Position numbers and translations under genes: made by a program. A stretch of 64,000 bases of DNA from Sneathiella limimaris (GTDB taxonomy: Bacteria; Pseudomonadota; Alphaproteobacteria; Sneathiellales; Sneathiellaceae). Positions 43,836 through 60,546 of the stretch are shown here, in pieces. The notes below the pieces were generated by a model. The model was not told the origin of the DNA. It was given only the letters and a program-made list of their open reading frames with translations, and did no database searches. Within the stretch, counting starts at the first letter, position 1; the number at the start of each line of letters is the position of its first letter. The DNA is taken from the NCBI RefSeq assembly GCF_012932565.1, contig NZ_JABBYJ010000002.1, positions 372,001 through 436,000 on the forward strand. The letters run 5' to 3'.

Positions 43836-45020
43836 TTAGCCTGGTGACATACCACGCAGTCTCTCCGAGCGACGGCGGAGGAGTTCAAGAGTTGTCAGCA
43901 TCAAGATCGACAAGACCACAAGGATTGTAGCAACTGCCAAGATGGTCGGGGAGATTTGCTCCCGAAGACCAGTAAACATTTGCCATGGCAACGTTTTTTG
44001 TCCTGCGGAACCAACGAACAGAACCACAACCACTTCGTCAAAAGATGTAATAAAAGCAAAAAGACCACCTGATACTACACCCGGCAAAATCAAGGGCATC
44101 TGCACTCTAAAGAAAGTTGTAACAGGGTTTGCGCCAAGATTTGCAGCCGCCCGTGTCAGACTATGATCAAAGCCGACAAGAGTGGCCGTCACTGTGATGA
44201 TTACAAATGGGATCCCCAAGGCCGCATGCGCAAGAACAACACCAATGTAGGTACCTTGCAGGCCAACCCGGCTATAGAAGAAATACATACCTGCAGCTGA
44301 GATGATAAGCGGCATAATCATTGGCGAAATCAGGATAGCCATAATAGCCCTGCGGAACGGGACAAAAGGCTGACTGAGACCAATTGCTGCCAGTGTCCCC
44401 AAAGAGACAGACAAGATTGTTGCCGCAGGCGCAATTGCGAAACTATTCCGAAGTGCCCCTTGCCAATCAGAATTGGTAAAAAAGTCTTCATAATGCTTCA
44501 AGGAATACCCGGCCGGATCAAAGTTCAACATTGCCGGTGTAAAAGTGAAGAAGTTTTCGGCATTAAAACTAAGAGGCATCACCACAATAATCGGAGTGAT
44601 TAGAAAGATGAAAATCGCCCAACAAATCACCACAAAGGTATGATGCCAAAGTACCTGCCCCGGTGTTGCATATGAGGGTAAGCGGCGGCGATGTTCGCCC
44701 GTCGCCAACCAAAATACAAACCAGTTAAAGACCCAACCAAACAGGACACCAATGACAGCGCCAGCAATTTGGGCTTGCAGGTAACCCAAAACAAGACCCA
44801 AGGCCATTAAAACCATTTGTGACAGTCGCTTTGATTTAAGCACCCTGACCATAATAAAAGCAGCAATCGCCCCAATAACAACGCCGGCAACAATTCCAAT
44901 CAGTGGGATTTTTTGCGTCATCCCAAAGAGCAGACCGAACAATCCAAGGAAAAAGGCGCCGCCACCGACTATTAGCTGGTTTGAGGCAATGATCGCTTTG
45001 TCTTTTTTCTGAACACTCAT
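43836..45020 (-). CDS. PotC-like ABC importer permease with N-terminal extension
   Basis: 394 residues; PotC/YdcV-type permeases are usually near 260-280. The core starts about residue 120 and contains the binding-protein-dependent signature AAANLGANPVTTFFRVQMPLILPG (EAA loop). The added N-terminus (about 20-110) has three or four extra hydrophobic helices. Four bases after the PotB-like gene with GGGGGGG before its ATG, so translated from the same mRNA. Imports together with the PotB-like, ATPase and binding proteins. Confidence 0.9.
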   Translation of the reverse strand: MSVQKKDKAIIASNQLIVGGGAFFLGLFGLLFGMTQKIPLIGIVAGVVIGAIAAFIMVRVLKSKRLSQMVLMALGLVLGYLQAQIAGAVIGVLFGWVFNWFVFWLATGEHRRRLPSYATPGQVLWHHTFVVICWAIFIFLITPIIVVMPLSFNAENFFTFTPAMLNFDPAGYSLKHYEDFFTNSDWQGALRNSFAIAPAATILSVSLGTLAAIGLSQPFVPFRRAIMAILISPMIMPLIISAAGMYFFYSRVGLQGTYIGVVLAHAALGIPFVIITVTATLVGFDHSLTRAAANLGANPVTTFFRVQMPLILPGVVSGGLFAFITSFDEVVVVLFVGSAGQKTLPWQMFTGLREQISPTILAVATILVVLSILMLTTLELLRRRSERLRGMSPG

Positions 45021-45024
45021 AGCT

Positions 45025-46578
45025 TTACCCCCCCAACTTAACGTTATCAATACCGACGATCCGGTCATAGACCCAATACAGCAACAATACGACGACCAGC
45101 AATATGGTACCAAGAGCTGCCGCTAATCCCCAGTTCAGGGAACTTGAAATATGATAGGCGATCCGGTTGGAGATAAAGGTGCCTGTCGTGCCACCCACGA
45201 TCTCTGGGGTAATGTAGTAGCCGATCGACAAAATAAACACCAAGATTGAACCCGCCCCAATACCAGGAACTGACAGAGGGAAATAGACCCGCCAGAATGC
45301 AGTCCAGTTGGTTGCTCCCATCGACTTGGCGGCACGGGTATAGGTTTCAGGAATAGTTCTCATCACCGAGTAAAGTGGCAGAACCATAAAAGGTAGAAGG
45401 ATATGGGTCATTGCGACAATAGTACCAAACTGGTTGTTAATCAGAACCAGCCGGCCTGCTTCGTCCACAATATTTAACCAAACCAAGGTATCATTGATCA
45501 CACCTTGCTGCTGCAGCATAACCTTCCATGCCGAGGTCCGAACCAACAATGAGGTCCAGAAAGGCAACAACACCATAATCATCAGGAGATTAGCTTCCCG
45601 CATGGGCCGGTTAGACATAAGCCAAGCAATCGGATAGCCAAGCAGGATGGCGCAGCCCGTGATGACCATTGACATAAACAACGTGCGCCCAAACAAAGTC
45701 CCGTAAATTCTTTCGTTATCTGGGCGAACTGAATACCCATCAAAATCTTTTTTCAGGTCCGCCGCATTCAAGAAATATCCTTCAGTGTACGGCGGTGAAT
45801 AAGTGCGAAGTGTCTTCCAGACGTCCTCACTCACCCAGTCTTTGTCAAATTTTTTGAATGCCGCCTTGAAGTCAACAGTTTCAAAACCAGACACTCCACT
45901 GGCGGCTTTCTGGATCATGTCGTTTCCGACTGCATTTCCAGAGATATTCTTTAGATCATCATAGAGGGCCACAAATATAAAATCTTCAAGCCCTTCTTCT
46001 TTTGGTACATCACCATCAGCAATTACATAGTCCTGCCAAGCGCCAAAAGCCCACATTGCGCGCGGCAAAACATCACTGGCATCAGAGTCGTTCGCCAGCA
46101 TTTCCCATGTGGCAAATTCATTCCATTTAGGATCTACTGCCGCAAACTGGTCTCTGTAAACTTCAACATCCAGCCTACGCACTCGGCGACCTGATTTTCT
46201 GAAAAGTGAGGAAACACCGGTTTGCTCATAGTTGAGGCGTGTTCCGAGGCGGGTATGTTCTTTCTTTTCAGCCGCCACGAACATATCCACATAAAGGGCA
46301 GAAAATGTCTCGTTCCCTGGAACTATCGGGTCATCATCGCTATCCGCGTTCAACATTCCAACGGTTTGCGGGAGCGTTTCCTCAACAATCTTGTTTTCAA
46401 CAGATCGGAACAGCATGTCCGCTATTGGCGCAATGAAAGTGATTAGAATAAACGCGAGCAATGGTGCTATCAGCATCAATGCGCGGAATTTCTGAAGGCG
46501 CAAGGACCGTTTAAGGCTGCGTTTTAGAGGTGTCCCATCAGCGGCAAGCACGGGACCTGTGTCGGTCGTATCACTCAT
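45025..46578 (-). CDS. PotB-like ABC importer permease with large periplasmic insert
   Basis: 517 residues against about 285 for E. coli PotB. First helix about 34-55 (ALMLIAPLLAFILITFIAPIA); then an acidic soluble insert of about 230 residues (starting DMLFRSVENKIVEETLPQTV, about 55-285), and only then YGTLFGRTLFMSMVITGCAI and the usual five helices with AAKSMGATNWTAFWRVYFPLSVPG. The insert would sit in the periplasm by topology and may interact with the binding protein. Separated from the binding-protein gene by a hairpin. Confidence 0.9.
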   Translation of the reverse strand: MSDTTDTGPVLAADGTPLKRSLKRSLRLQKFRALMLIAPLLAFILITFIAPIADMLFRSVENKIVEETLPQTVGMLNADSDDDPIVPGNETFSALYVDMFVAAEKKEHTRLGTRLNYEQTGVSSLFRKSGRRVRRLDVEVYRDQFAAVDPKWNEFATWEMLANDSDASDVLPRAMWAFGAWQDYVIADGDVPKEEGLEDFIFVALYDDLKNISGNAVGNDMIQKAASGVSGFETVDFKAAFKKFDKDWVSEDVWKTLRTYSPPYTEGYFLNAADLKKDFDGYSVRPDNERIYGTLFGRTLFMSMVITGCAILLGYPIAWLMSNRPMREANLLMIMVLLPFWTSLLVRTSAWKVMLQQQGVINDTLVWLNIVDEAGRLVLINNQFGTIVAMTHILLPFMVLPLYSVMRTIPETYTRAAKSMGATNWTAFWRVYFPLSVPGIGAGSILVFILSIGYYITPEIVGGTTGTFISNRIAYHISSSLNWGLAAALGTILLVVVLLLYWVYDRIVGIDNVKLGG

Positions 46579-46638
46579 TCTTCAGTCGCCAGTTTACTGT
46601 TCAAAACAAGGGTCGAAAGCTATTCTGAGGTATAAATA

Positions 46639-46665
46639 AGAGAGCGGGCATGATACCCGCTCTCT
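46639..46665 (-). terminator. Hairpin between binding-protein and permease genes
   Basis: Perfect ten-base stem AGAGAGCGGG / CCCGCTCTCT with a seven-base loop, followed on the minus strand by TTATTTA. Partial termination or 3' stabilisation would leave more binding protein than permease, as in many ABC import operons. Confidence 0.8.
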
Positions 46666-46674
46666 CTTTTTGTC

Positions 46675-47781
46675 TTAGTTTGCCAACCAAGCTTGGAATT
46701 TAGCGTCAATGTCGTCGCGATAATCTGCCCAGAACTCATAATTGTAGAGGAATGTGTTCTTGGCATTGTTAGGATCTGTTGGCATATGTGGACCCATTTC
46801 GATACCCAGTTCAGCGTGTTTTCCAACAAGTGGAGCTGAAGATTTCCGAGCAGGACCATATGAAATATATTTTGCCTGATCAGCAAGACGCTGTGTGTCA
46901 GTCGCAAACTTCAGATAGTCCATAACGCGGGCTTTGCGCTCTGGGCTCAAACCAGCAGGAACAATCCAACCGTCCAGGTCAAACACCTGTGCGTCCCAAA
47001 GCATAGCAACTGGCTGTTTCTGCTCTTCAATAACTGAGAACAGACGTCCGTTGTATGTTGAGCCCATGACGATCTCACCATCAGCAAGCAGCTGAGGTGT
47101 ATCAGCACCAGCTGACCACCAGATCACGTCATCCTTGATTGTGTCCAGCTTGGCCAGAGCCCGCTCTTGACCTTCTGGAGTGGCCAGTACGTCATAAACT
47201 TCGTTTTTCGCAACACCGTCACAGAGCAATGCCCACTCCATGTTGTTGATCGGGCGTTTTTCCAATGACCGTTTTCCAGGCCATGTCTTGGTGTCGAAAA
47301 TCGCACAAACAGAAGTTGGTTTTTTGTCACCAACCAGATCAGTCCGGTAGCCAAATGTTGTGGAGTATACGATCTGTGGGATGAAACAATCAGAAACGAT
47401 CAGGTCACCAAAGTCTTTACTCGCTGGCGTTCCGTCCGGAGCCGCAGCCAAAACTTTGTCGTGATCAATTTCTGCAGCCAGGCCTTCGTCGCAAAGACGA
47501 ATAGCATCGGCAGCAACAACGTCTACGAGATCCCAAGTAACGTTACCGGCCTCATCCATAGCCCGCAACTTGGCCACAGCCTCTGCGGAACTCTCGTCAT
47601 TGATCACCTTAATGCCAGTCTTTTCCATGTAAGGTTCATGGTATGCCTTCATTTGAGATGCAGAATAAGCTCCACCCCAAGACACAATTGTCATTTCATC
47701 TGCCATGTCGGCTGCCGATGCTCCTGTTACGCAAACAGCAGAAAAGACAGTCGCAATTGACAGCTTTGCTAAAAATTTCAT
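46675..47781 (-). CDS. Periplasmic polyamine-type substrate-binding protein (PotD-like)
   Basis: 368 residues with a signal peptide (cleavage near GASAADM). The family signature EMTIVSWGGAYSASQMKAYHEPYMEKTGIKV and the late AKYISYGPARKSSAPLV fit the PotD/YdcS-type (SBP class 8) family. Substrate could be spermidine, putrescine or a related cation; by context it might be a betaine- or amino-acid-like compound. Second gene of the operon after the ATPase. Confidence 0.9.
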   Translation of the reverse strand: MKFLAKLSIATVFSAVCVTGASAADMADEMTIVSWGGAYSASQMKAYHEPYMEKTGIKVINDESSAEAVAKLRAMDEAGNVTWDLVDVVAADAIRLCDEGLAAEIDHDKVLAAAPDGTPASKDFGDLIVSDCFIPQIVYSTTFGYRTDLVGDKKPTSVCAIFDTKTWPGKRSLEKRPINNMEWALLCDGVAKNEVYDVLATPEGQERALAKLDTIKDDVIWWSAGADTPQLLADGEIVMGSTYNGRLFSVIEEQKQPVAMLWDAQVFDLDGWIVPAGLSPERKARVMDYLKFATDTQRLADQAKYISYGPARKSSAPLVGKHAELGIEMGPHMPTDPNNAKNTFLYNYEFWADYRDDIDAKFQAWLAN

Positions 47782-47827
47782 GTCGCTCTCCTCTGAAATT
47801 TCCCAGTTAGATTATTGAGTACATTTA

Positions 47828-47873
47828 TGGGGGATATAATAGTTCCCCCACTGCGGAAGGTCCGAAATGGACC
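47828..47873 (-). other. Two small hairpins between the ABC ATPase and binding-protein genes
   Basis: TGGGGGA / TCCCCCA (47828-47850) and GGTCC / GGACC (47859-47873) lie in the 118-base gap. Neither is followed by a strong T-run on the minus strand. May be RNA stabilisers or partial terminators. Confidence 0.4.
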
Positions 47874-47899
47874 ACCACAGCGATTGGGTTTCCCCGATT

Positions 47900-48994
47900 T
47901 TAGGCATCAAGAGCCCGGCAGTCCTGAGGCAACCAACCGATATCGATTTGTTGTCCTGGCTGCAAACGCGTTTGATTAACTGCGTTTCTTGTTTTCACAA
48001 TAAAGTCTTCGTTCCCTGCGACCCGAAGACGTGTCCGGAAAATATCGCCCATGTAAATGAATTCAAGAACTTCCGCCTTAAGCGTATGGGCATTCTCTCC
48101 CAGCCGTTCGCGATCAAACTCAACACGTTCTGGCCGAATGGAAACCTTAGTTCTCTCACCCACTTCACTGATATTAATCGGAATTGTGTCAATCAATTCA
48201 CCATTATCCAGACGGACGATCGCTTCGTTACCTTTGATTTCCTGCACAGTGCCTTCCAGCGTATTATTTTCACCGATGAACTGCGCAACAAAACTGTTTT
48301 CAGGCTCTTCATAAAGTTGATCCGGTGGCGCGAGCTGCTGAATACGCCCATCATCAAACACAGCAACTCGATCGGACATGGTCAGCGCTTCCGTCTGGTC
48401 ATGGGTCACATAAACCACTGTGATATCGAGGTCGTCAGCAATTCGCTTAATCTCAAATTGCATATGTTCACGAAGCTGCTTATCCAACGCTCCGAGCGGC
48501 TCATCCATCAGGACAAGAGTTGGATCAAAAACCAGCGCCCTAGCTAACGCAATCCTCTGCTGCTGACCACCTGATAGTTGGGCAATTCGGCGATTACCAA
48601 AATCCCCCATTTGAACCATTTCAAGCGCGCGCTTCACTTTTTTCTCACGCTCAGGCTTGCTCATTTTGCGAATTTCAAGCGGGAAGGCCAAATTCTCGTT
48701 CACAGTCATATGCGGAAAAAGTGCATAGTTCTGGAACACCATTCCAATTCCCCGCTTGTGGGGCGGAATGTTGTTTATTTCCTGTCCATCCAATCGAATT
48801 TCACCATGTGTCGCAGTTTCAAAGCCTGCCAACATCATCAGACAAGTCGTCTTACCAGACCCGGATGGGCCCAACATGGTTAGGAATTCGCCTTTCGGCA
48901 TTGCCAGATTAAGATCTTTGACGACCAAGGTCTCGCCATCATAGCTCTTTTGAACGCGTTCAAATTCTACAAACGCCTGCTCGTCCCCTGTCAT
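47900..48994 (-). CDS. ABC importer ATPase, PotA-like
   Basis: 364 residues. Walker A GPSGSGKTT, signature LSGGQQQRIALARAL, Walker B VLMDEPLGALD, H-loop VTHDQTEALT, and a C-terminal TOBE domain (IRPERVEFDRERLGENAHT). Energises the polyamine-type importer. First gene of the operon, divergent from the DpaL-like gene across a long AT-rich gap. ATG 48994 chosen; TTG 49000 has better spacing to GGGGGA (six bases) and cannot be excluded. Confidence 0.92.
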   Translation of the reverse strand: MTGDEQAFVEFERVQKSYDGETLVVKDLNLAMPKGEFLTMLGPSGSGKTTCLMMLAGFETATHGEIRLDGQEINNIPPHKRGIGMVFQNYALFPHMTVNENLAFPLEIRKMSKPEREKKVKRALEMVQMGDFGNRRIAQLSGGQQQRIALARALVFDPTLVLMDEPLGALDKQLREHMQFEIKRIADDLDITVVYVTHDQTEALTMSDRVAVFDDGRIQQLAPPDQLYEEPENSFVAQFIGENNTLEGTVQEIKGNEAIVRLDNGELIDTIPINISEVGERTKVSIRPERVEFDRERLGENAHTLKAEVLEFIYMGDIFRTRLRVAGNEDFIVKTRNAVNQTRLQPGQQIDIGWLPQDCRALDA

Positions 48995-49000
48995 AGTCAA

Positions 49001-49477
49001 GTTTGGTCCCCCATACTCTTAAGTACCAATTATTAGATGTAGACTCCCTTAACGTTGGAAGTGATTACAACAATATTTTTCAAATAACACAACCGGTTAA
49101 AATGTTTTTTTTGTACACGAATAAAAAAAACACAAGGAACCACTTAAATTAAACTATATACTTAAGTTATAGAATCACGATTTATACATTAATCCAACTA
49201 TAATATAGTCAAATTAAGTATTTCTCGACTTACTTTGATCATATGAGAATTTTATTTCTTTAAATTTTTAGAAACAATTTAGAATGAGCAATTTTATTAC
49301 TAATTTTAACTATGATGAAAATTCACATTCTAAAGCCCTAACAGATAGAAAATCAGAAAGGCCTTTCATACGAAAAATTGCATTTACCTTGCGAGCAAGT
49401 TCTTAATCACCCAAAGGCTGGCTTTTCATAACCTGACCCGCTAGTGTGATTCTCAAGCAAGATTGCAAGGAAGTACA
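49001..49477. other. AT-rich 477-base gap between two divergent operons
   Basis: No convincing ORF. It must hold the two divergent promoters for the ABC importer and the DpaL/M24/racemase operon. Visible: a perfect 12-base palindrome GAAAGGCCTTTC (49356-49367), an ACTTAAGT palindrome near 49162, and several long A/T runs. Markedly more AT-rich than the rest of the window. I see no terminator, tRNA or known RNA here. Confidence 0.6.
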
Positions 49478-50563
49478 ATGCGGATAATTGCAAATCCTAT
49501 CAGGGGGAAGGGTTTATCTGATCAAGCCGGATTTGAAACTGGCACAATTGTGACAAACCCGAAAGCGGCTCTAAACCTCATGTCACAATGCCCAGTTGGT
49601 CACACGACACCTCTTTTGGACAAAACCGAACTCGCGGATGAGCTAGGTATTGCCAAACTCTTCATTAAAGATGAGAGAGGCAGGATGGAACTGGGGAGTT
49701 TCAAAGCACTTGGCGCCGCCTTTGCAATCGCAAAACAGGCCGCGATCCGAATGGAAGACTTGCCTTCACTTACTCCTGAAAACAGCCTATCCGGGACAAC
49801 ATTTGTCTGCGCCAGCGCTGGCAATCACGGGCTGTCCATGGCAGCAGGTGCTCGCGTTTTTGGCGCAACCGCAGTTGTCTATCTCTCGGAAACGGTCCCT
49901 GAAAGCTTTGCTGAAAAATTAAGAGCGAAGAACGCTGTCGTTGTTCGGGAGGGCACAGATTATGAGGCGAGCATGGACGCGGCCCGAAAAGCCGCGCAAG
50001 ACAACGACTGGCAACTACTGTCTGACAGTAGCTGGCTAGGATACTCAGAACCTGCCCGGGATGTGATGGAAGGTTACCTGATAATGGGAGCCGAAATCGG
50101 AGATCAATTAGCAGAAGCACCAAGCCATGTGTTTCTCCAAGCTGGCGTTGGTGGACTAGCCAGCGCTGCGGCAGCTATGTGCCGCTACTTATGGCAAGAT
50201 ACACCGGAAATCATTGTGGTAGAACCATCTGAAGCGCCCTGCCTCATCGAAAGCATAGAGGCAGGAAAACCTGTCAAGACCAGCGGCCTGGTATCCAACA
50301 TGGGTCGACTAGATTGTAAGGAGCCCTCTCACCTCGCGCTTCGATATCTTTCAAAAGAAGCCGATTACTTTATGACAATTGACGACGAAATGGCCCAGTC
50401 AACTTGCCAATGGCTTAAAGAATTTGGACTTGCCTCCACACCGTCAGGTATCGCCGGAATAGCTGGCTTAAAAACAGTAAAAGAGCACGATGCACTGAAA
50501 AGCCTCACTGGCAGCTCCACCGTCCTGACATTTATGTCTGAAGAGGCAACTGGCGATGATTGA
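49478..50563 (+). CDS. Diaminopropionate ammonia-lyase-like PLP enzyme
   Basis: 361 residues. Fold-type II PLP enzyme: the Schiff-base lysine sits in GSFKALGAAFAIA, then CASAGNHGLSMAAGARVFGA, SDSSWLGYSEPARDVMEGY, and HVFLQAGVGGLASAAAAM. The pattern matches 2,3-diaminopropionate ammonia-lyase (YgeX/DpaL); threonine or serine dehydratase-type activity is possible, and so is the EutB role of ectoine catabolism. ATG 49478 has AAGGA upstream. The gene overlaps the M24 peptidase by eight bases. Confidence 0.8.
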   Translation: MRIIANPIRGKGLSDQAGFETGTIVTNPKAALNLMSQCPVGHTTPLLDKTELADELGIAKLFIKDERGRMELGSFKALGAAFAIAKQAAIRMEDLPSLTPENSLSGTTFVCASAGNHGLSMAAGARVFGATAVVYLSETVPESFAEKLRAKNAVVVREGTDYEASMDAARKAAQDNDWQLLSDSSWLGYSEPARDVMEGYLIMGAEIGDQLAEAPSHVFLQAGVGGLASAAAAMCRYLWQDTPEIIVVEPSEAPCLIESIEAGKPVKTSGLVSNMGRLDCKEPSHLALRYLSKEADYFMTIDDEMAQSTCQWLKEFGLASTPSGIAGIAGLKTVKEHDALKSLTGSSTVLTFMSEEATGDD

Positions 50564-51704
50564 AGAGTTTAGTGGGGATTTTCCGGTTTCTGAATTTGAA
50601 GCTCGGCTCAATAAAGCTCATGTCATGATGCATAAGCTCAACATTGACCTTCTCTTTTTCACAAGCGAGCCAGAAATGAGGTATTTCACTGGTTTTCGCA
50701 CCTTATTTTGGCAAAGCCCTACCCGCCCTTGGTTTCTCATAATCCCAAAAAATAAAAAGCCAATTGCCGTAGTTCCTGAAATTGGCAGTGCCCTCATGCA
50801 TGAAACATGGTTAGATGACATTCAAACCTGGTCTTCACCTCATGCCACAGATGATGGTGTGTCTCTTCTAACTTCTATCCTCAAACCTTTCTCAAGGGTT
50901 GGTATGCTTATGGGCCGGGAAAGCTCACTTCGTATGCCACTCAAGGACTTTCAATCTTTACAGCAAAATTTGCCACACATCTCTTTTGTAAATGTCTCAG
51001 CTGAAGTTCAACATTTACGTATGGTCAAATCGCCAGCGGAAATTCAGTTCATTGAGCAAATTTGCAGCATTGCATCCACGAGCTTTGAAAACGCCGCCAA
51101 CCTGTTTCAGGTAGGAATGCCGTTAGATGAAGTGTTTCGCACCTTTAAAAAGGACCTACTGACCAACGGGGCTGATGACGTTCCCTACCTAGTGGGAGGA
51201 GCCGGCGATGGTGGCTATGCCGATGTGATATCACCACCGAGCAGCACCCCACTTAAAGAAGGAGATATTCTGATGCTCGACACGGGTGCTACCTTTAAAG
51301 GCTATTTCTGTGACTTTGATCGAAACTATGCTTTTGGGCGGGCCTGCGATCACGTGAAGCATGCATATAAAATCCTCTTGAACGCGACGATGGCAGCTTT
51401 TGAGGTTGCCCGGCCCGGCACTCGTTGCAAAGACTTACACGCAACGATGCAGCAAGTTATCGGCCAAAGCACCGGCGATGTTGGTCGCTATGGACATGGT
51501 CTTGGAATGCAATTAACGGAAGCCCCCTCCCTTATTGATTTTGATGACACGGTTCTTGAAGAAAACATGGTCATAACACTAGAGCCTAGCTTGTCTTTGG
51601 GAGATGGCAAAATCATGGTTCACGAGGAAAACATTCTTATTCAGGATGGTGCACCAAGATTTTTGTCCAGACTTGCACCTGAGGAATTACCTATCCTTGG
51701 ATAA
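50556..51704 (+). CDS. M24-family metallopeptidase / hydrolase (Xaa-Pro type)
   Basis: 382 residues with the creatinase/prolidase two-domain layout. All metal ligands are present: LDTGATFKGYFCDFDRNYA (two Asp), GHGLGMQLTEAP (His), LEPSLS (Glu) and HEENILI (Glu), so a di-metal enzyme. Possible roles are a dipeptide or amide hydrolase, including an ectoine hydrolase (DoeA/EutD)-like activity by context. Overlaps the DpaL-like gene and is followed after 21 bases by the isomerase-like gene. Confidence 0.88.
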   Translation: MIEEFSGDFPVSEFEARLNKAHVMMHKLNIDLLFFTSEPEMRYFTGFRTLFWQSPTRPWFLIIPKNKKPIAVVPEIGSALMHETWLDDIQTWSSPHATDDGVSLLTSILKPFSRVGMLMGRESSLRMPLKDFQSLQQNLPHISFVNVSAEVQHLRMVKSPAEIQFIEQICSIASTSFENAANLFQVGMPLDEVFRTFKKDLLTNGADDVPYLVGGAGDGGYADVISPPSSTPLKEGDILMLDTGATFKGYFCDFDRNYAFGRACDHVKHAYKILLNATMAAFEVARPGTRCKDLHATMQQVIGQSTGDVGRYGHGLGMQLTEAPSLIDFDDTVLEENMVITLEPSLSLGDGKIMVHEENILIQDGAPRFLSRLAPEELPILG

Positions 51705-51725
51705 TTGCGATCGGAAACCCATATC

Positions 51726-52469
51726 ATGAAACTCTCATACGATCTTGAAGACCCCAAAGATATCAAAGCTGTCCTCGGCCTGATTGTCCTGCAAGCGGAT
51801 GAAACACTGGAAACCGAATTTCGCTCAGTTCTAACCGATCCAAGTATTCGCCTCTATCACAGCCGTATTCCAAGTGGCGCCGACCTGAACCCTGAAACCT
51901 TGATGCAAATGAAGGCTGACTTGCCAATGGCAGCATCACTGTTACCCAAAACAGCTGAGTTTGATGTAATTGGATATGCTTGTACTTCGGGCGCGACTTT
52001 TATCGGTAGGGATACAGTTCGCAAGCTCATTCAAACGCATCATCCTGATGCCCTGGTATCCGATCCGATTACAGCAGTCCTCGCCGCCTTCAGAAAGCTT
52101 AACCTGAAACGGCTCGGTTTTATCACACCGTATGTTGCCGAAGTGTCTGCGGCTATGAGAGAGTTACTTGAAAACGAAGGCTTGGACATTGCTGCATTTG
52201 GATCTTTCGAGCAGATGGAGGAAGCACTGGTAGCCCGTATCAGTGATCAATCTGTGCTAAATGCTTTGATTGATATGGGGTCACGAGACGATATTGAAGG
52301 GCTTTTTGTCTCCTGCACCAATGTGAACAGTTTTGGCATTATCGAGGAAGCAGAGCGCCTAATTAATAAACCCGTTGTTACCAGTAACCAGGCTCTGTTT
52401 TGGCATATGCTAACTCTATCAGATGTGGCCACCAAAGGAGCAGGACCAGGCAAACTATTTAATTCATAA
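51726..52469 (+). CDS. Maleate isomerase / Asp-Glu racemase superfamily protein (EutA-like)
   Basis: 247 residues. The two catalytic cysteines of the family are visible in IGYACTSGATFIG and LFVSCTNVNSFG. Resembles arylmalonate decarboxylase, maleate cis-trans isomerase and EutA of ectoine clusters. Third gene of the PLP lyase/M24/isomerase operon; acts on an amino- or dicarboxylic acid by inference. ATG at 51726 chosen; an earlier TTG at 51705 directly follows the M24 stop. It ends 23 bases from the convergent DgcA-like gene. Confidence 0.8.
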   Translation: MKLSYDLEDPKDIKAVLGLIVLQADETLETEFRSVLTDPSIRLYHSRIPSGADLNPETLMQMKADLPMAASLLPKTAEFDVIGYACTSGATFIGRDTVRKLIQTHHPDALVSDPITAVLAAFRKLNLKRLGFITPYVAEVSAAMRELLENEGLDIAAFGSFEQMEEALVARISDQSVLNALIDMGSRDDIEGLFVSCTNVNSFGIIEEAERLINKPVVTSNQALFWHMLTLSDVATKGAGPGKLFNS

Positions 52470-52492: not shown

Positions 52493-54529
52493 TCATATCG
52501 CCATTCCAAGACGCAGCGCGTCATAAATCGCTGCGTGAGTATTTCTGGCAGCGACTGCATCTCCTATCCGGAACAACTGATATCGGCCCTCTTCATTTCG
52601 AACAGTTGCTTGTGGCTGACCCTCAATTAACGCATTGTAATCAACTTCTCCCATATTGACCGAACTTGGTTTGAGATCAAAATAGAGCTCATCTAGAGGG
52701 ATTGTGCCGTGATTGACGACAATTTGGTCATACGGTTGTTTCTTAGAAACTCCACCATAATCGCTCCCTATCAAAGCCATCAATTGATTGCCTTGCCTTT
52801 CCACCGCTTTCAAACGGTACGTTACCGTAAATTTCGTATCCAACTGCTGTAAAGTCCGCATATATGGCACCAGATTCATCGCCATCACTTCAGGAGCAAA
52901 AGAGCGGTCTGGTGTCATTATTTCTACTTTCGCGCCTGAGCGAGCTATCAATTCCGCAGCCTGGAGAGCAGCATGATCACCAGCGTCATCATAGACAAGC
53001 ACATCGCTACCTGGCCTTACATCACCGGATATTATATCCCAAGATGAAACAACCAACTCATTCCCGGAAACCAAAATATCTGTATGAGGCAAGCCACCGG
53101 TTGCTATGATCACGACATCTGGTTTTTCGTTCAAAACTGTTTCTTTTTCCGCCCAGTTATTAAAGTAAAAATGAACCCCCTTGGCCGTACATTGGGCCAT
53201 GCGCCAGTCAATGATACTCATCATTTCCTTGCGGCGATCGCTCTGAGCGGTCAATCGGACTTGTCCCCCGGGCTGGCTCGCTGCCTCGAAGACAACAACA
53301 TTGTGCCCCCGTTCCGCCGCGACACGAGCCGCCTCCATACCACCCGGCCCAGCCCCGACAATAACTACCTTTTTCCGGTGAGGTGCTTTTTCAATTACAT
53401 GCGGCATGGAAACTTCACGGCCCGTCGCCGGGTTATGAATACAATGGGCAGCTCCACCTTGATAAATCCGATCGAGACAATAATTCGCTCCAACGCAAGG
53501 CCGAATATCATCCTCCCTTTTCTGCATAATTTTTTGAACTATGTAAGGGTCGGTCATATGCGCTCGCGTCATCCCCACCATATCAACCTTCCCAGATGCA
53601 ATGGCGTGCCTCGCCGTGGCGACATCTGGAATTTTAGCAGCGTGAAAAGTCGGGAAATCAGTTGCCGATCGAATTTCTCCAGCAAAGTCTAAATGAGGAG
53701 AGTTTGCCATCCCCTGAATTGGGATCACATCTGTAAGACCCGCATCTGTGTCTATGTGGCCTCGAATAACATTTAAGAAATCAATTTGCCCGCTATCCTT
53801 TAGCTTTTTAGAGATTGCAAGGCCATCTTCTTTTGTAAGGCCACCTTCAAGTGACTCATCCCCCGTATAACGAATACCTACAATAAAGTCAGGTCCAACC
53901 CGTTTTCGGATCTCTGTAAGCACATCAAAAGTCAGTTGCAGTCGATTTTCCAACTCCCCACCATAGGGACCTGACAGGTCATTAGTCAGCGGGGACCAAA
54001 ACTGGTCCAACAAATGACCATAAGCCTGCAACTCAATCCCATCCATTCCACCCGCTTTCATACGCTCAGCGGCGTCAGCATAATCCTTGATTATCCGCTC
54101 AACATCCCAGTCTTCGGCTTTTTTAGGAAAGGCTCTGTGTGCGGGCTCCCGCTCATGAGAGGCTGAAATTACGGGAAGCCAATCTTCTTTGTCCCACCTG
54201 GTCCTCCTTCCCAAATGAGTCAACTGGATCATAACAGCCGCACCTTGCTCATGGATAGCATCAGTCAAATCCTTAACCCAGGGAACGACCTCATCTTTAT
54301 AAACAAGTAAGTTATTGAAAACTGGAGGGCTGTCTTTGGAAACGGCGGCAGAGCCAGCAGTCATTGTCATGGCAACCCCTCCCTTTGCCCGTTCCACATG
54401 GTAGGCCCTGTAACGCGCCTTAGGCATGCCATCCTCAGGATAAGCAGGCTCATGAGAAGTCATAATTATCCGGTTTCGCAAAGTGAGGTGCTTCAGCTTG
54501 TAAGGCTGTAGAATAGGATCTTTAGACAT
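52493..54529 (-). CDS. DgcA/StcD-like demethylase (OYE + Fe-S + FAD/NAD flavoprotein)
   Basis: 678 residues. N-terminal old-yellow-enzyme barrel (LRNRIIMTSHEPAYPEDG, VMIQLTHLGRR), Fe-S region CVGANYCLDRIYQGGAAHC at about 355-375, then a FAD/NAD domain (VVIVGAGPGGMEAARVAAERGH). Belongs with dimethylglycine (DgcA) and N-methylproline/stachydrine (StcD) demethylases and trimethylamine dehydrogenase. One of the four usual cluster cysteines is Ala (CVGANYC). No DgcB or ETF gene adjoins it. Third gene after the Rieske pair, so it likely removes a methyl from the first product. Confidence 0.85.
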   Translation of the reverse strand: MSKDPILQPYKLKHLTLRNRIIMTSHEPAYPEDGMPKARYRAYHVERAKGGVAMTMTAGSAAVSKDSPPVFNNLLVYKDEVVPWVKDLTDAIHEQGAAVMIQLTHLGRRTRWDKEDWLPVISASHEREPAHRAFPKKAEDWDVERIIKDYADAAERMKAGGMDGIELQAYGHLLDQFWSPLTNDLSGPYGGELENRLQLTFDVLTEIRKRVGPDFIVGIRYTGDESLEGGLTKEDGLAISKKLKDSGQIDFLNVIRGHIDTDAGLTDVIPIQGMANSPHLDFAGEIRSATDFPTFHAAKIPDVATARHAIASGKVDMVGMTRAHMTDPYIVQKIMQKREDDIRPCVGANYCLDRIYQGGAAHCIHNPATGREVSMPHVIEKAPHRKKVVIVGAGPGGMEAARVAAERGHNVVVFEAASQPGGQVRLTAQSDRRKEMMSIIDWRMAQCTAKGVHFYFNNWAEKETVLNEKPDVVIIATGGLPHTDILVSGNELVVSSWDIISGDVRPGSDVLVYDDAGDHAALQAAELIARSGAKVEIMTPDRSFAPEVMAMNLVPYMRTLQQLDTKFTVTYRLKAVERQGNQLMALIGSDYGGVSKKQPYDQIVVNHGTIPLDELYFDLKPSSVNMGEVDYNALIEGQPQATVRNEEGRYQLFRIGDAVAARNTHAAIYDALRLGMAI

Positions 54530-54586
54530 ATACGACCTCCGCTTATGACCTTCTTATTCCACTGTTTAAATTACTTTTTGTTTCAA

Positions 54587-55654
54587 TCATGCATCAACTT
54601 TGACATGGCCAATAGGATTGGAGCAACAGGCCAAGATATACCCATCCTCGATGTCTTCATCGGTTATTCCGCCGTTGTGAACCATATGGACGTGGCCTTC
54701 TATCCTACGAATTTTACAAGTTCCACATATGCCCATGGTGCAGCCTGATGGTATCACCAAACCTGCATTTCGAGCCGCAACCAGGATATTATCTGCCTCT
54801 TTACAGTGAGCCAAAACATCCGAAGCCAAGAATTCAATTGAAGCATTAGTTTTCTCGTCCGGGACAACATCCTCTTGTACAACGTCAGCCTCAATCGAAG
54901 GAGCATGAAAACTTTCCTGATGATAGTGATCCATATTAAAACCTAGACCAGCAAGGACCTCCCGCACAGCTTGCATAAAAGGTTCAGGCCCGCAGCAAAA
55001 CACTTCACGGTCCAGATAATCCTGCGCCATTAGGCCAAGCATCAATTGGTTGAAGCTTCCCAAGTATCCTGTCCACGGCTGAAAAGGATCTGGTTCCTCA
55101 ACCACCCACTTCAGATCAATCCCTTTAATCCGCGATGCCATATGCTCCAGCGCTTCTTTAAAAATAATTTCAGACGGTCGTTTCGCACAATTGACAAAAA
55201 TGACATCAGGCTCCCGCCCTAAATCATAGAGATACGTTGTCATGGATTTCATCGGTGTAATGCCGGAGCCTGCGGAGATAAAAAGGTACCGATCCGAAGG
55301 GTTGTTGACGATTGAAAATCTTCCCGATGGACCTCTGGCCTTCACTTTCATTCCGGGTCTGAGATTATCCAGCATCCAACGTGTTCCAATAGAATTTTGT
55401 TGGGCCTTCACTGTTATCGTTATCGACATGGGCCGACTTGGTGAGGATGAAATAGTGTAGGTCCGATATAAAGGACCACCGGGCACTGGCAATTCAAGTG
55501 TTATAAACTGACCTGGATCATAGCTAAACAGCACTCCCGAGGACGCCTGAAAGGAAAAAGTCATTACGTTAGGTGCCTCAGGAAGAAAAGATACGCATTC
55601 CAGCAATTCCTTATCGTCCCAGAGGGTCAAATTGGGCTTGTGACGTGAAGACAT
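54587..55654 (-). CDS. Rieske oxygenase reductase, GbcB-like
   Basis: 355 residues. Ferredoxin-NADP reductase type FAD domain (YRTYTISSSPS, FISAGSGITPMKSM), NAD domain ending EVFCCGPEPFMQAVREVL, and a C-terminal plant-type [2Fe-2S] ferredoxin (CTMGICGTCKIRRIEG with a later CC). Passes electrons from NAD(P)H to the Rieske oxygenase. Five bases after the oxygenase gene; the ATG at 55654 has GGAG upstream and is preferred to the TTG at 55672. Confidence 0.87.
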   Translation of the reverse strand: MSSRHKPNLTLWDDKELLECVSFLPEAPNVMTFSFQASSGVLFSYDPGQFITLELPVPGGPLYRTYTISSSPSRPMSITITVKAQQNSIGTRWMLDNLRPGMKVKARGPSGRFSIVNNPSDRYLFISAGSGITPMKSMTTYLYDLGREPDVIFVNCAKRPSEIIFKEALEHMASRIKGIDLKWVVEEPDPFQPWTGYLGSFNQLMLGLMAQDYLDREVFCCGPEPFMQAVREVLAGLGFNMDHYHQESFHAPSIEADVVQEDVVPDEKTNASIEFLASDVLAHCKEADNILVAARNAGLVIPSGCTMGICGTCKIRRIEGHVHMVHNGGITDEDIEDGYILACCSNPIGHVKVDA

Positions 55655-55658
55655 TACC

Positions 55659-56900
55659 TTACTCCGCAGCAACCATAGACTCGCCCAAAACTTCCTGGCT
55701 CAACAAACCCATATACCAATCCGTAAACTGGATGACCCCGCCTTCCTGAATTTCAGAATACGGACCAGGCTCATACGCAGGTGACTGAATCCCTTTTTGG
55801 TTATTTTCGACGACTTCTTTATCTTCCGCATTTGTTGAGAGCCATACCTCTGTCAGCCGGTTCAGATCATAATGACGCCCTTCCTCAGCGTCCTTATGAA
55901 CCAACCATTTTGTACAAATCTCCGTTTCTGTAGCGCTTATAGGCGATACTCGAAAGACCAGAGAATGATCTGCCATAAAATGATTCCAAGTCGTTGGAAG
56001 ATTAAAATAGAGGAGTGACCCCGCGTCTTTAAATGGGATTGAAGAGTTTGGAATTTCAACGGCTGACTTAGTATCCATCGTGTAACTCTCTCCTGCGCCA
56101 AGCAGAGGCGGTCGCACAAAACGCCAATTCCCGTCTTTTGCAGTAATTAGGGCGGAGGGAGCCCCTACTGCTTCACATCTTTTTACATGCTGCTCCATCA
56201 ACGGAGCTATGCTGCCGTCACCAATATTTCCAATCAGGCGAGCATCTTCGGGAAATGTTCGGCAAAGAGATGGGTGATTGCCACCACAATGGTAGCATTC
56301 CCTATTATTCTCCCAAACCAACTTCCAGTTCGCATTTTCTATGATCGTGCTTTCATATGCGACTTTTGAATTTTCCAAATCGTGTGGCGCCAAGTAACGT
56401 CCTGCCACATCAGAAAACACCTCAATATCTGGCGCGACTTCAGCTAGGCAAATATAAATCAAACCGCTAACGTTTCGGCAGTGGACCGGCTTCAATCCAT
56501 ATTGGTCTGGATTGAAATCTTCACCCATATCTCGAGCCCATAAGAGCTTTCCATCCAAATCGTATGTCCATTGATGGTAAGGGCAGACCAGCTTTGGATT
56601 CCGTCCTTTTCTCGACTTGCATATAACAGAGCCCCTATGACGGCAGGTATTATGAAACGCCCGAATTACCTTATCTTCTCCGAGCACCAAAATTACCGAA
56701 AAAGCTCCAACCTGATGGAGAACAAAGTCCCCTGACTTTTGGAGCTCACAAGCTGGTATCGCAAAAAGCCACTGCTTATAAAAAATATGTTCGAGATCGA
56801 AATCATAGATAGCTTGTGACGTATAAAAGTCCTGCTCCAGCGAAAAGCCTGAGACATGACGGGTCAGCATGTCACCAAAAGAAGATTTTAAAGCCACCAT
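55659..56900 (-). CDS. Rieske aromatic-ring/betaine oxygenase alpha subunit, GbcA-like
   Basis: 413 residues. Rieske [2Fe-2S] ligands in CRHRGSVICKSRKGR and CPYHQWTYDLDG, and mononuclear iron site NNRECYHCGGNHPSL, with LYFNLPTTWNHFMADHSLVF and KWLVHKDAEEGRHYDLNRL as further family segments. Closely parallels glycine betaine monooxygenase GbcA; stachydrine or carnitine oxygenases are alternatives. Would remove one N-methyl as formaldehyde. ATG 56900 preferred over TTG 56924. Divergent from the LysR gene. Confidence 0.87.
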   Translation of the reverse strand: MVALKSSFGDMLTRHVSGFSLEQDFYTSQAIYDFDLEHIFYKQWLFAIPACELQKSGDFVLHQVGAFSVILVLGEDKVIRAFHNTCRHRGSVICKSRKGRNPKLVCPYHQWTYDLDGKLLWARDMGEDFNPDQYGLKPVHCRNVSGLIYICLAEVAPDIEVFSDVAGRYLAPHDLENSKVAYESTIIENANWKLVWENNRECYHCGGNHPSLCRTFPEDARLIGNIGDGSIAPLMEQHVKRCEAVGAPSALITAKDGNWRFVRPPLLGAGESYTMDTKSAVEIPNSSIPFKDAGSLLYFNLPTTWNHFMADHSLVFRVSPISATETEICTKWLVHKDAEEGRHYDLNRLTEVWLSTNAEDKEVVENNQKGIQSPAYEPGPYSEIQEGGVIQFTDWYMGLLSQEVLGESMVAAE

Positions 56901-57057
56901 CGCAATATTCCATGTGATTACCAACGCAGTGACTTAAACTTTTGACCCCTTCGCGATTTTTGACAATAGTATAAAATTTCAATCTAGATTAGATGAGCTA
57001 ATGTCAAGATGGGTATAAATTGATCTATTGCAGACTAATGTTTAGGCGTCTCTTAAA

Positions 57058-57936
57058 ATGAAAAGTCCATATGATCTATCCTCAATAAATGCCCTAGTCT
57101 GTTTTGAAGCTGCGGCCAGACATCTCAGCTTCAAAAAAGCGGCACAGGAAATGAATGTAACACCGGCGGCGATAAGTCACAGGATTAAAGCGCTTGAGAT
57201 CGATTTGGGATGTCGGCTATTTAATCGAAGCAATCGAGGTGTCGAACTGACAGAAAAAGGAGCATTCCTAGTTTTTGCCTTACAACGAGGGTTCGAAACC
57301 ATTTCAGACACAGTTACACTGCTCAAAGACCAGCCAGAAACCGTCGACGTCACGATACGAACAACGACTGCAGTCAGTTCACTCTGGCTCATCCCGAAAA
57401 TTTCTCAATTTTGGAAATCTCACCCAGACATCACGATTTCGCAAATCGTTAGTGATATCCCTGAGATGACTGCCCGATGCGACCTTAGTATTCAATACAG
57501 TAACCCTCTGGAGGAGGGCTCCGAAAACAAAAAGCTCTTTCAGGGCAATATCATCGCAATAGGATCACGCCAATTTGCCGATGACCATCAAATTCTCTCA
57601 ATCAATGATCTGTTAAATGTACCTCTTATTCATATTCAAAATGATGACACGGTCTGGACAAGCTGGACGGACTGGTTTCATGAATTAGAGTATCCGGGCC
57701 CCAAAGGCAGGAGTTTTTATTTGAACAACTATATGATTGGCCTTCAGGCAGCACAGGATGATGTTGGTGCCATTCTTGGATGGGACCGTTTGGTAGGAAA
57801 GTTATTGCAAGACGAACAACTGGTTCAGCTTGTGCCAAACAGCATTCCCTCTCCAATGGGGTTTTATCTTAATATCCACCCAAGAGCTTCAGAAAAAGCC
57901 CGTATTTTTGCTGATTGGCTCTTGAAAGCCGAATAA
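57058..57936 (+). CDS. LysR-family regulator (GcvA-like) beside the Rieske operon
   Basis: 292 residues. Helix-turn-helix domain LSFKKAAQEMNVTPAAISHRIKALE followed by a LysR ligand-binding domain with GcvA-like features (SSLWLIPKISQFWKSHPDI). Divergent from the gbcA-like gene across 157 bases, so probably its regulator; the ligand is perhaps the quaternary amine or its product. A perfect AATCTAGATT palindrome at 56981-56990 lies in that gap. Ends before a convergent terminator. Confidence 0.88.
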   Translation: MKSPYDLSSINALVCFEAAARHLSFKKAAQEMNVTPAAISHRIKALEIDLGCRLFNRSNRGVELTEKGAFLVFALQRGFETISDTVTLLKDQPETVDVTIRTTTAVSSLWLIPKISQFWKSHPDITISQIVSDIPEMTARCDLSIQYSNPLEEGSENKKLFQGNIIAIGSRQFADDHQILSINDLLNVPLIHIQNDDTVWTSWTDWFHELEYPGPKGRSFYLNNYMIGLQAAQDDVGAILGWDRLVGKLLQDEQLVQLVPNSIPSPMGFYLNIHPRASEKARIFADWLLKAE

Positions 57937-57960
57937 CGGCACACCTGCATACACCATGTC

Positions 57961-57993
57961 TTGGAAAACTTGAGAGCTAATCAAGTTTTCCAA
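57961..57993. terminator. Two-way terminator between LysR and creatinase genes
   Basis: Perfect 13-base stem TTGGAAAACTTGA / TCAAGTTTTCCAA with a seven-base loop, between the convergent LysR and creatinase genes. The arms supply A/T-rich flanks in both directions, so it could end both transcripts. Confidence 0.8.
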
Positions 57994-58024
57994 ATCAGGT
58001 TAGACCGACCAGCTCTTAAGATAA

Positions 58025-59227
58025 CTAACCAACGACATTAAAATCGGGACCATAAGGATATCCCGTAATATTCTCGTTTCCATCCTCCGTAATAATCAGG
58101 ATGTCGTGTTCTCTGTATCCACCACTACCGGGTTTCCCTTCAGGAATTGTCAGCATCGGCTCCATAGATATGACCATTCCAGCTTCTAAAACAGTATCGA
58201 CGTCTTCTCGAAGCTCTAAACCAGCTTCCCGGCCATAGTAATGGGACAAAACTCCGAACGAGTGGCCGTAGCCGAATGTACGGTATTGCAGTAGATCTCG
58301 CTCTTCAAAAAACCGATTTATCTTTTCAGTAACTTCCACACAGGAAACACCAGGTTTTAATAGGCCCATCCCATATTCATGAGCAGCCACATTAGCTTCC
58401 CAAACGCTTAAACTTGCGGGATCCACATCCTGAACGAATAAAGTTCTCTCAAGTGCTGTGTAGTAGCCAGAAATCATTGGGAAAGTATTTAGGCTTAATA
58501 TATCTCCGCGTTCCAGCTGCCGGGAAGTTACAGGGTTATGCGCACCGTCAGTATTAATGCCGGATTGAAACCAGACCCAGGTATCTCGATATTCAGCGTC
58601 TGGGAACCGCTTAGCAATCTCAAGTTCCATCGCGTCCCGGCCTGCCATCGCCACATCAATTTCGCGCGCGCCCAAACGAACGGCTTCCCGAATAGCATAA
58701 CCACCAACGTCGGCAACAGCTGCTCCCTTTCTAATTAGTTCGATTTCCGCAAACGACTTGTTCATACGCTGGAGCATAGTTGCCGGTGCGATATCCACCG
58801 TGTTTACCGGGTCGAGAAACTCATCCAGCAAAGCCTTTTGGACAAGGGTCAAATGATCCCCTTCGTAGCCAATGACCTTCCCCTTACCAGAAACGGACCG
58901 AATGGCCCGCCAAAAATTATTTCGCTGCCAATCTGTATAGGTGATGTTATCTCCGTGGCATCTGCGCCAGGGCTGAGCGGCATCAATACCAGCGCTAATC
59001 GTTACACTTTCATTTTGCGTTACCACCAAGCCATACGGACGCCCAAAACTGCAATATAGAAACCCTGAATAATAGGCAATGTTGTGCATGGAGGTAAAAA
59101 CGCAGACCTCCACACCTTCTCGGCTCATTGCACTTCTTAATCCTTGCAGCCGGGCATCATACTCTGTCGAAGTAAAGGGGAGCTGTCTCTCCCCTTGATG
59201 AAATTGATAAAATTCAGGACGGTCCAT
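58025..59227 (-). CDS. Creatinase (creatine amidinohydrolase)
   Basis: 400 residues, the normal length. Hydrolyses creatine to sarcosine and urea. Long stretches match Pseudomonas creatinase as I remember it: ISAGIDAAQPWRRCHGDN, TWVWFQSGINTDGAHNPVT (active-site histidine), GYYTALERTLF (active-site Glu), FGYGHSFGVLSHYYGREAGL and GGYREHDILII. M24 fold without the metal-binding aspartates (the position of LDTGATF reads LNTFPMI), as expected of creatinase. Transcribed alone after the PhyH gene, with a 257-base gap. Confidence 0.92.
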   Translation of the reverse strand: MDRPEFYQFHQGERQLPFTSTEYDARLQGLRSAMSREGVEVCVFTSMHNIAYYSGFLYCSFGRPYGLVVTQNESVTISAGIDAAQPWRRCHGDNITYTDWQRNNFWRAIRSVSGKGKVIGYEGDHLTLVQKALLDEFLDPVNTVDIAPATMLQRMNKSFAEIELIRKGAAVADVGGYAIREAVRLGAREIDVAMAGRDAMELEIAKRFPDAEYRDTWVWFQSGINTDGAHNPVTSRQLERGDILSLNTFPMISGYYTALERTLFVQDVDPASLSVWEANVAAHEYGMGLLKPGVSCVEVTEKINRFFEERDLLQYRTFGYGHSFGVLSHYYGREAGLELREDVDTVLEAGMVISMEPMLTIPEGKPGSGGYREHDILIITEDGNENITGYPYGPDFNVVG

Positions 59228-59484
59228 CGCGGTTTCCTTCTAGCAGCCTTGCTGCGAGAAGAGGATTTTCCTCACCGCAGCAACGGTAAAGTAAATCCCG
59301 GCGTTCAGGATGGAAAACGGGTATTCAAACACAGGCGACGCCATCGCCTACCCGACCAAATTCTATGCAAGAAGTTCCGATCTGTGCAAGAAGCAAATAG
59401 CTATGCCTCTCAAAATACAAACATTATTACAACTATCAAAAAAATAAATCAGCATCCCTCCAAAAGAAGAAGCGATAGCCGCTC

Positions 59485-60546
59485 TTACACCTCATGCTCC
59501 TCTTGCAACTGGACTGGCCATTCATCGACTTTGCCTTTACCTGCACAAACCCATGGTGAACTTGCAATATGTACATTTTCCAGCAACTTCAGCCCATTAA
59601 ACATTATTCGATTGTAATTCCCACCTATGAAGGGAATAGAGAATAAATCTCCTCCACTCCATGGGCAAAATGGATTTCTACGCAACGAGCCGTACATTTC
59701 AATTCTAGTTGTTCGCTGAAAACTTGGACTGCGCGCGTGAAAACCATGCGTGTCAGCAACCACCAAAGTATTCGCTGGTACCGACATTTTTTTTGGTTGT
59801 CCGTAACCCAGCTCTGAAAGAAGTTCTGGTGATGCTCTTAACGATCCATTGCGGACATGCTCATTATTTATTGACTTGTAATTAAAAGAAATCTCTTGTT
59901 CCCAATCTCGACGAGGCTCTGTCATTCTATGAGAACCAGGAACATATGAAAACGGGCCTTCATCCTCATGAACATCATGCAGAAAAAGCCATGCCTTAGA
60001 AGTCGAATGGAAAGTATCACTATGTAAAACTGTTTGCGGATCATTTTCATCGACATTTGTAACCGGGTTCGCGTGGACAGATTGAAGACTAATTAATGGC
60101 TGCCCTCCGACACCAGCAACATATCTCATCAACTGGATAAACTTAGAACTAAAACAAAACTCTCTCATCGCTGGCAGGAAGGAAAGTTCTGCTCTATCGG
60201 TTACCGCTCTTCTGGTTATGGTACTTCCTTGAAGCATATCATATCTTAAAAAATCGGTTTCTTCGACTTCACGCCTAAGACTTTCAAATGTGGATTTTGG
60301 CAGAAAATTGTTTATCTGGACAAAGCCATTTGTTTCGTATGATAGCTTTAGCTCACTAGAGAGTGGCTGCCCCAACGTTTTTCTTCTGAAATCAGATAGC
60401 CGCTGCGCATACTCAACGCGTTTGATATGCAAACCTTTTCGATTTAGCCATTCGCTTCCTATTATAGGATTTCTCTCAAAGGATTTAGACTTTGAAAAGA
60501 CCTGCATGCCGTAAAAGGGGTATGCCGCCAAATTTAACAACTTCAT
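59485..60546 (-). CDS. Phytanoyl-CoA dioxygenase (PhyH) family protein
   Basis: 353 residues. Fe(II)/2-oxoglutarate oxygenase fold: the iron-binding HxD is in TVLHSDTFHST, the second histidine in ADTHGFHARSPSF, followed by the 2-oxoglutarate-contacting Arg region TTRIEMYGSLRRNPFC. PVFVIPGSHR-type sequence (YVPGSHRMTEPRRDW) is also present. The substrate is not known: members act on fatty acids, amino acids, ectoine and natural products. Upstream of the creatinase gene on the same strand and possibly co-regulated. Confidence 0.85.
   Translation of the reverse strand: MKLLNLAAYPFYGMQVFSKSKSFERNPIIGSEWLNRKGLHIKRVEYAQRLSDFRRKTLGQPLSSELKLSYETNGFVQINNFLPKSTFESLRREVEETDFLRYDMLQGSTITRRAVTDRAELSFLPAMREFCFSSKFIQLMRYVAGVGGQPLISLQSVHANPVTNVDENDPQTVLHSDTFHSTSKAWLFLHDVHEDEGPFSYVPGSHRMTEPRRDWEQEISFNYKSINNEHVRNGSLRASPELLSELGYGQPKKMSVPANTLVVADTHGFHARSPSFQRTTRIEMYGSLRRNPFCPWSGGDLFSIPFIGGNYNRIMFNGLKLLENVHIASSPWVCAGKGKVDEWPVQLQEEHEV

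Follow-up and report, generated by a model that had tools for sequence, protein, structure and literature searches.

A three-gene operon beside a PotABCD-type importer in Sneathiella limimaris and its possible part in the use of ectoine-type solutes

Ectoine is a salt-stress protectant, and ectoines are widespread marine osmolytes. The window, a stretch of 64,000 nucleotides of the Sneathiella limimaris genome, carries an operon (here the trio) that encodes a PLP lyase, an M24-family protein and a relative of EutA; the genes of a polyamine-type transporter run divergently from it. The question raised by this locus is which compound these proteins take up and degrade. The original prediction pointed to an imported diamino or amide compound and a pathway that was not settled; a literature search among papers open without subscription, preprints excluded, found none on this set of genes, in agreement with the latter claim. 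The reading preferred here, to which a probability of about 0.5 is given, is that importer and enzymes together form a module for a compatible solute of the ectoine type.

Layout and conservation of the operon and the importer

The features of the region are as follows.

43836-45023, minus strand: PotC-like permease (start codon provisional)
45025-46578, minus strand: PotB-like permease
46675-47781, minus strand: PotD-like solute-binding protein (Pfam)
47900-49000, minus strand: PotA-like ABC ATPase (NCBIfam)
49001-49477, no strand: intergenic region shared by the divergent importer and the trio, 30% G+C
49478-50563, plus strand: diaminopropionate (DAP) ammonia-lyase-like PLP enzyme of fold type II, short type, 361 aa (NCBIfam, motif)
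50556-51704, plus strand: M24a, an M24-family protein with five metal ligands and without the two peptidase catalytic histidines (Pfam, alignment, model)
51726-52469, plus strand: EutA-like protein (Asp/Glu racemase-maleate isomerase superfamily) that has Cys86 and Cys197 (NCBIfam, alignment)
58025-59227, minus strand: M24b, a creatinase-family protein (neighbour search)

The three open reading frames of the trio share one strand; those of the lyase and M24a overlap by 8 bases, and a gap of 21 bases separates M24a from the EutA-like gene. The first one starts with ATG at 49478, with an alternative longer TTG start at 49463. Pfam places the three proteins in PALP (E 5e-53), Creatinase_N plus Peptidase_M24 (E 4e-33) and AMDase/EutA-like (E 2e-16), respectively. 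The divergent importer occupies 43836-49000. Its ATPase passes the cut-off of TIGR01187 (PotA) with 385.9 versus 355.6 bits, and its PotD-like protein has 8jv1 as the nearest solved chain, followed by GABA and opine binders.

The gene order of importer and trio is kept in two congeneric species, in which the trio proteins are 69-73% (L021) and 66-73% (L022) and the transporter proteins 82-92% identical to those of the window. Both the operon of overlapping or nearly touching genes and its co-inheritance with the divergent importer are thus confirmed. The trio is also conserved as a unit in many other genera of marine Alphaproteobacteria, so the arrangement is not due to chance, and the proposed search for the same set and its partners in other genomes had a positive outcome. 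A first contig scan with the EutA-like protein as sole query gave no match; in the M24a scan of named genomes, the best 80 of 574 matches were taken as loci, mostly from the Roseobacter clade, Stappiaceae and other marine Alphaproteobacteria. An EutA-like gene was found at at least 68 of these best 80 loci, a DAP-lyase-like gene at at least 64, an M20 deacylase at at least 37 and an AsnC/Lrp regulator at at least 35, all minima because contig edges cut off some loci. The loci L021-L170 contain duplicates (e.g., L056/L136, L059/L143 and L081/L140) and overlaps (L022/L041 and L024/L042), and for this reason the row counts given below for the alignments and the tree are not genome counts.

No conserved operator was found in the intergenic region between the PotA and lyase genes. 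The search for an operator common to this region in the three species and to the upstream region of the genome's own eutD gene gave only matches of chance length, which counts against the ectoine-module reading.

Family assignments and active-site residues

The PLP enzyme has DAP ammonia-lyase as its best NCBIfam model, as expected, although it scores below the cut-off (267.9 versus 276 bits). It also stays below a second DAP ammonia-lyase cut-off (171.8 versus 532 bits) and below that of EutB (42.8 bits with TIGR02991 and 63.8 bits with NF005680, versus 413). The lyase slot of the loci is filled by two types of enzyme, a long one with the motif ATDGNHG (52 of 92 rows) and a short one with ASAGNHG (40 of 92 rows), to which the window lyase belongs. 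The Asp of the TDGNHG motif, which we take to be a catalytic residue of DAP ammonia-lyase, is present in the DAP lyase chain 5ygr and is replaced by Ala in the window lyase. The Asp of the motif D-x-x-W-x-GY, presumably a second functional residue of DAP ammonia-lyase, is retained (SDSSWLGY). The long-type lyase of one Roseobacter-clade operon exceeds the DAP ammonia-lyase cut-off (463 versus 276 bits). The R. pomeroyi locus tags SPO2194-SPO2197 were dropped as candidate members of the module: the sole find for them was a small-RNA target table that names SPO2196 as DAP ammonia-lyase.

These assignments bear on the main rival reading, which is judged rather unlikely: a pathway of its own, with 2,3-diaminopropionate or one of its derivatives as the end point, the ectoine link being due to shared lifestyle or importers. 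M24a, together with the M20 deacylase of many relatives, would strip an N-acylated or cyclic precursor, the EutA-like protein would racemise the product and the lyase would yield pyruvate and ammonia. Besides the best family of the PLP enzyme and the long-type lyases that keep the Asp and, in the case above, pass the cut-off, this route draws support from the frequency of the M20 protein (best model DoeB2, 305 bits versus a cut-off of 550) and from the canonical ectoine cluster that the genome already has. A precedent comes from the reductive breakdown of uric acid: passages of PMC12507026 describe an M20 enzyme, YgeY, and a DAP lyase, YgeX, that turn albizziin into pyruvate. On the other hand, the window lyase differs from YgeX in falling below the family cut-off and in being a short type with Ala at the active-site Asp, EutD occurs in 26 of the 30 genomes with a strong trio (see below), and Ehu importers lie within the same operon in relatives.

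The five metal ligands of M24a (D242, D253, H314, E343 and E357) are invariant in 126 of 126 rows, whereas all seven EutD rows have E, P, Y, M and T at these positions. M24a reaches 73.2 bits on the EutD/DoeA model, with a cut-off of 613. The His of PHG and the His of HExP are what we take to be the catalytic residues of M24 Xaa-Pro peptidases; M24a has no His at the PHG position, and the HExP histidine site is Thr321, fixed in 126 of 126 rows. Its AlphaFold model (mean pLDDT 80.7) has the pita-bread fold of the ectoine hydrolase EutD/DoeA, and the fold-search matches comprise creatinases, prolidases and EutD (6yo9 and 6twk). Since Xaa-Pro peptidases are the closest solved sequences, ordinary dipeptide salvage by a prolidase-like enzyme with unrelated neighbours was considered, and it is highly improbable given that both catalytic histidines are missing and that the linkage of M24a to the EutA-like and lyase genes is conserved. 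Passages of PMC4108388 describe a comparable case, the DMSP lyase DddP: a metalloenzyme of the M24 type that occurs in marine Alphaproteobacteria and acts on an osmolyte by chemistry other than that of a peptidase. It has no close sequence similarity to M24a, and in the fold search with the M24a model RlDddP comes no higher than 48th.

The third protein had been called an EutA relative and is one: EutA (TIGR02990) is its best NCBIfam model, with 154.1 bits versus a cut-off of 318 (canonical eutA scores 360), and both canonical cysteines are kept. Cys86 is present in 103 of 103 operon EutA rows and Cys197 in 102 of 103 (one gap), and the canonical EutA rows have both paired cysteines in 7 of 7, two of these rows being identical. 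In the tree, the window protein falls within a clade of 88 rows without any canonical row (support 99/97), and the canonical rows form a separate group (support 90/94).

Compared with the eutABC genes of R. pomeroyi and S. meliloti, the trio likewise pairs a fold-type-II PLP enzyme with an EutA relative that shares both cysteines, and in some relatives it is part of, or close to, clusters that hold EutD, EutE, Atf and ectoine importers. Unlike eutABC, it has no EutC, its PLP enzyme is nearer to DAP lyase than to EutB, an M24 metalloprotein is added, and its proteins miss the EutA, EutB and EutD cut-offs. Of the proposed parallel with EutB, EutD and EutA, the EutA relative stands; the M24 protein is no counterpart of EutD, having kept the metal ligands that EutD lacks. 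That the trio is a plain EutA/B/D set is ruled out by the active-site residues and the missed cut-offs.

Association with ectoine genes

The absence of EutC and EutE had been put forward against an ectoine role. This is true within the window; on another contig (C1), EutD (603 bits, cut-off 613) occurs with EutB and EutE (424 bits each, both over the cut-off), adjoined by EutC, Ssd and Atf. A canonical eutA was not found in this cluster, and no match to EhuB or UehA was found in the genome.

The co-occurrence sample comprised 385 Alphaproteobacteria, of which 55 have M24a at E<=1e-60. Strong M24a matches (>=560 bits) are present in 30 and EutD in 52 of the 385 genomes; 26 have both, with 4.05 expected. 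EutD matches of >=570 bits occur in 23 of the 30 (2.4 expected), both bit groupings having been picked after the scores were seen. Counted by genus, which controls only in part for phylogenetic non-independence, 19 of 23 strong-M24a genera have EutD (3.25 expected). Against the ectoine-module reading, four of the 30 strong-trio genomes (G217, G215, G300 and G366) have no EutD match, and the betaine gene GbcA, used as control, is also enriched, less strongly (7 of 30, with 1.79 expected), so shared lifestyle accounts for part of the co-occurrence. EutB is equally frequent among the genomes with EutD and a strong trio (12 of 26) and those with EutD and no strong trio (12 of 26); this lack of anticorrelation, a further point against the reading, means that the trio is no simple substitute for EutB and rules out strict replacement. 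Consistent co-occurrence with ectoine genes had been named as what would count against the original prediction, and it was largely found; the diamino or amide route is weakened by the trio in or beside ectoine clusters and by the ectoine-type importers of relatives.

Physical linkage was also observed; the identity thresholds for naming genes, here and at the PotABCD loci, were chosen by the analyst. Two genomes, that of L056/L136 and that of L137, have lyase-M24a-EutA-EutD-EutE in this order on a single strand, and EutB was not found in either. In L041 the cluster atf-ssd-asnC-eutE-eutD-eutC-eutB is the immediate neighbour of the Pot-trio unit, and in L042 M24a and EutA lie next to eutD, eutE, asnC, atf, PotABCD and a lyase gene of the long type. 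The trio, or its M24a and EutA genes, is also near eut genes in L060, L126, L138 and L139, and the trio or its M24a/EutA part is near atf in L098. Canonical ectoine enzymes were found, at a distance of up to some 10 kb, at 4 of the 80 named loci (best 80 of 574), a low share that speaks against the ectoine-module reading; they were also found in 4 of 34 class genomes (G216 is also among the named loci) and in 3 of 9 family genomes. A rough chance model (4-Mb genomes, a 10-kb cluster) expects 0.6, 0.26 and 0.07, respectively. One of these last is G006, with genes on two contigs: its Pot genes are split between L023 and L044, and its M24a-EutA/eut linkage is deduced from the arrangement in G018.

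In the window's family, EutD is present at E<=1e-140 in 18 of 25 genomes. Where an ectoine importer is missing, a Pot-linked locus takes its place, as the operon EutA does for a missing eutA. Pot-M24a-EutA loci occur in 4 of the 5 EutD genomes without EhuB and UehA versus 1 of the 13 with either (Fisher 0.008), and the operon EutA and canonical eutA are mutually exclusive except in G017 (Fisher 0.013), both p-values being optimistic because the genomes are related and not independent. G017 carries a full Ueh-eutABCDE cluster plus the trio, which argues against the preferred reading. In favour of that reading, G003 has lost the importer (Ehu), the lyase, BisC and M24a, with the adjoining operon EutA-like gene intact (L032:9431-10177), and no eutA turned up among its eut genes.

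In relatives, the importer slot also supports the ectoine-module reading. It holds EhuABCD in L030, with all four cut-offs exceeded, Ehu homologues in L028, L045 and L058, a weaker EhuA homologue in L073, L084, L120, L125 and L133, and UehC-like TRAP permeases (57-59%) in L101, L117, L119 and L132. The Ehu-linked operons of L030 (6192-8504), L028 and L045 also contain a BisC/TorA-family molybdoenzyme (in L030 an S/N-oxide reductase), which in L058 lies near the operon.

PotABCD itself has EutD as a neighbour in several genera: in L171-L173 the two are side by side, and in L189 the importer lies between EutD and EutE. These loci and L139 suggest a class of ectoine importer that the cited passages do not mention. 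This position beside EutD distinguishes the window type from the polyamine, GABA and opine importers whose binders the PotD-like protein resembles. Of 62 genomes selected for EutD or the trio, 39 have a PotD homologue, versus 1 of 18 controls, the latter picked by hand, seven of them for carrying GbcA, and G008 and some other family members being outside the search. On the other hand, 15 of 20 fetched PotABCD loci lack both canonical ectoine enzymes and M24b in their surroundings, and one (L174) has M24b only.

A salvage role for side products of EutD, namely gamma-ADABA and the corresponding hydroxy compound, neither of them accepted by EutE, would account for the co-occurrence of the module with EutD irrespective of EutB. 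According to passages of PMC8739950, R. pomeroyi on ectoine has substantial gamma-ADABA, which in passages of PMC5924519 is seemingly no substrate of DoeB/EutE. Such salvage would not call for an own importer, present at several loci, nor for a PLP beta-lyase, which gamma-ADABA does not need, and the idea has a slim chance.

Proposed role and neighbouring catabolic genes

In the preferred reading of an ectoine-type module, PotABCD would take up the solute, and the trio would act on it or on hydroxy-diamino acids derived from it through EutD and EutE encoded on the other contig. The EutA-like protein would epimerise or isomerise, the PLP lyase would catalyse an elimination from C-beta with release of ammonia, and M24a would perform a metal-dependent cleavage other than ordinary peptidase chemistry. 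The likeliest substrate is 5-hydroxyectoine, because EutA is a hydroxyectoine gene. Passages of PMC8739950 report that EutABC is required for 5-hydroxyectoine use in R. pomeroyi and state its activities as unknown. More tentatively, marine Alphaproteobacteria may possess a second hydroxyectoine branch that was put together separately. In it, an enzyme resembling DAP lyase and an M24 metalloenzyme devoid of the histidines would work beside EutB/EutC, or replace them in some genomes, and the PotABCD type would be a further class of ectoine importer. Among the 31 genomes with EutD at >=570 bits, strong M24a is present in 23 and EutB in 15, which suggests that the known list of marine ectoine-use genes is incomplete; the module singles out an M24 metalloenzyme and a candidate importer. 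Homarine catabolism was also considered as a role, and the literature search gave nothing relevant.

The stretch 52493-60546 of the window is an osmolyte-catabolism island next to the trio. It encodes an OYE-type flavoenzyme, GbcB- and GbcA-like betaine demethylase subunits (below the NCBIfam cut-offs), a LysR regulator, the creatinase-family protein M24b and a PhyH-type dioxygenase. M24b adjoins PotABCD in L026, L112, L135 and L171-L174 and is one gene away in L139, which makes it a possible member of this system. This adjacency and its match to creatinases (519 bits) would suit a creatine or guanidino-acid route, in which PotABCD would import creatine, M24b would cleave it and the trio would handle a related guanidine or amidine. 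Yet only six M24b rows were found among the loci L021-L170, and G011 and G017, both with Pot and the trio, have no M24b at E<=1e-120; this route is improbable.

In L125 and L133, and partly in L102, L118, L120 and L127, M24a lies amid a DMGDH/GcvT-type oxidase, a PhyH protein that is weakly ectoine-hydroxylase-like and a GntR regulator. A second EutA-like gene is found near M24a in L125 and L133.
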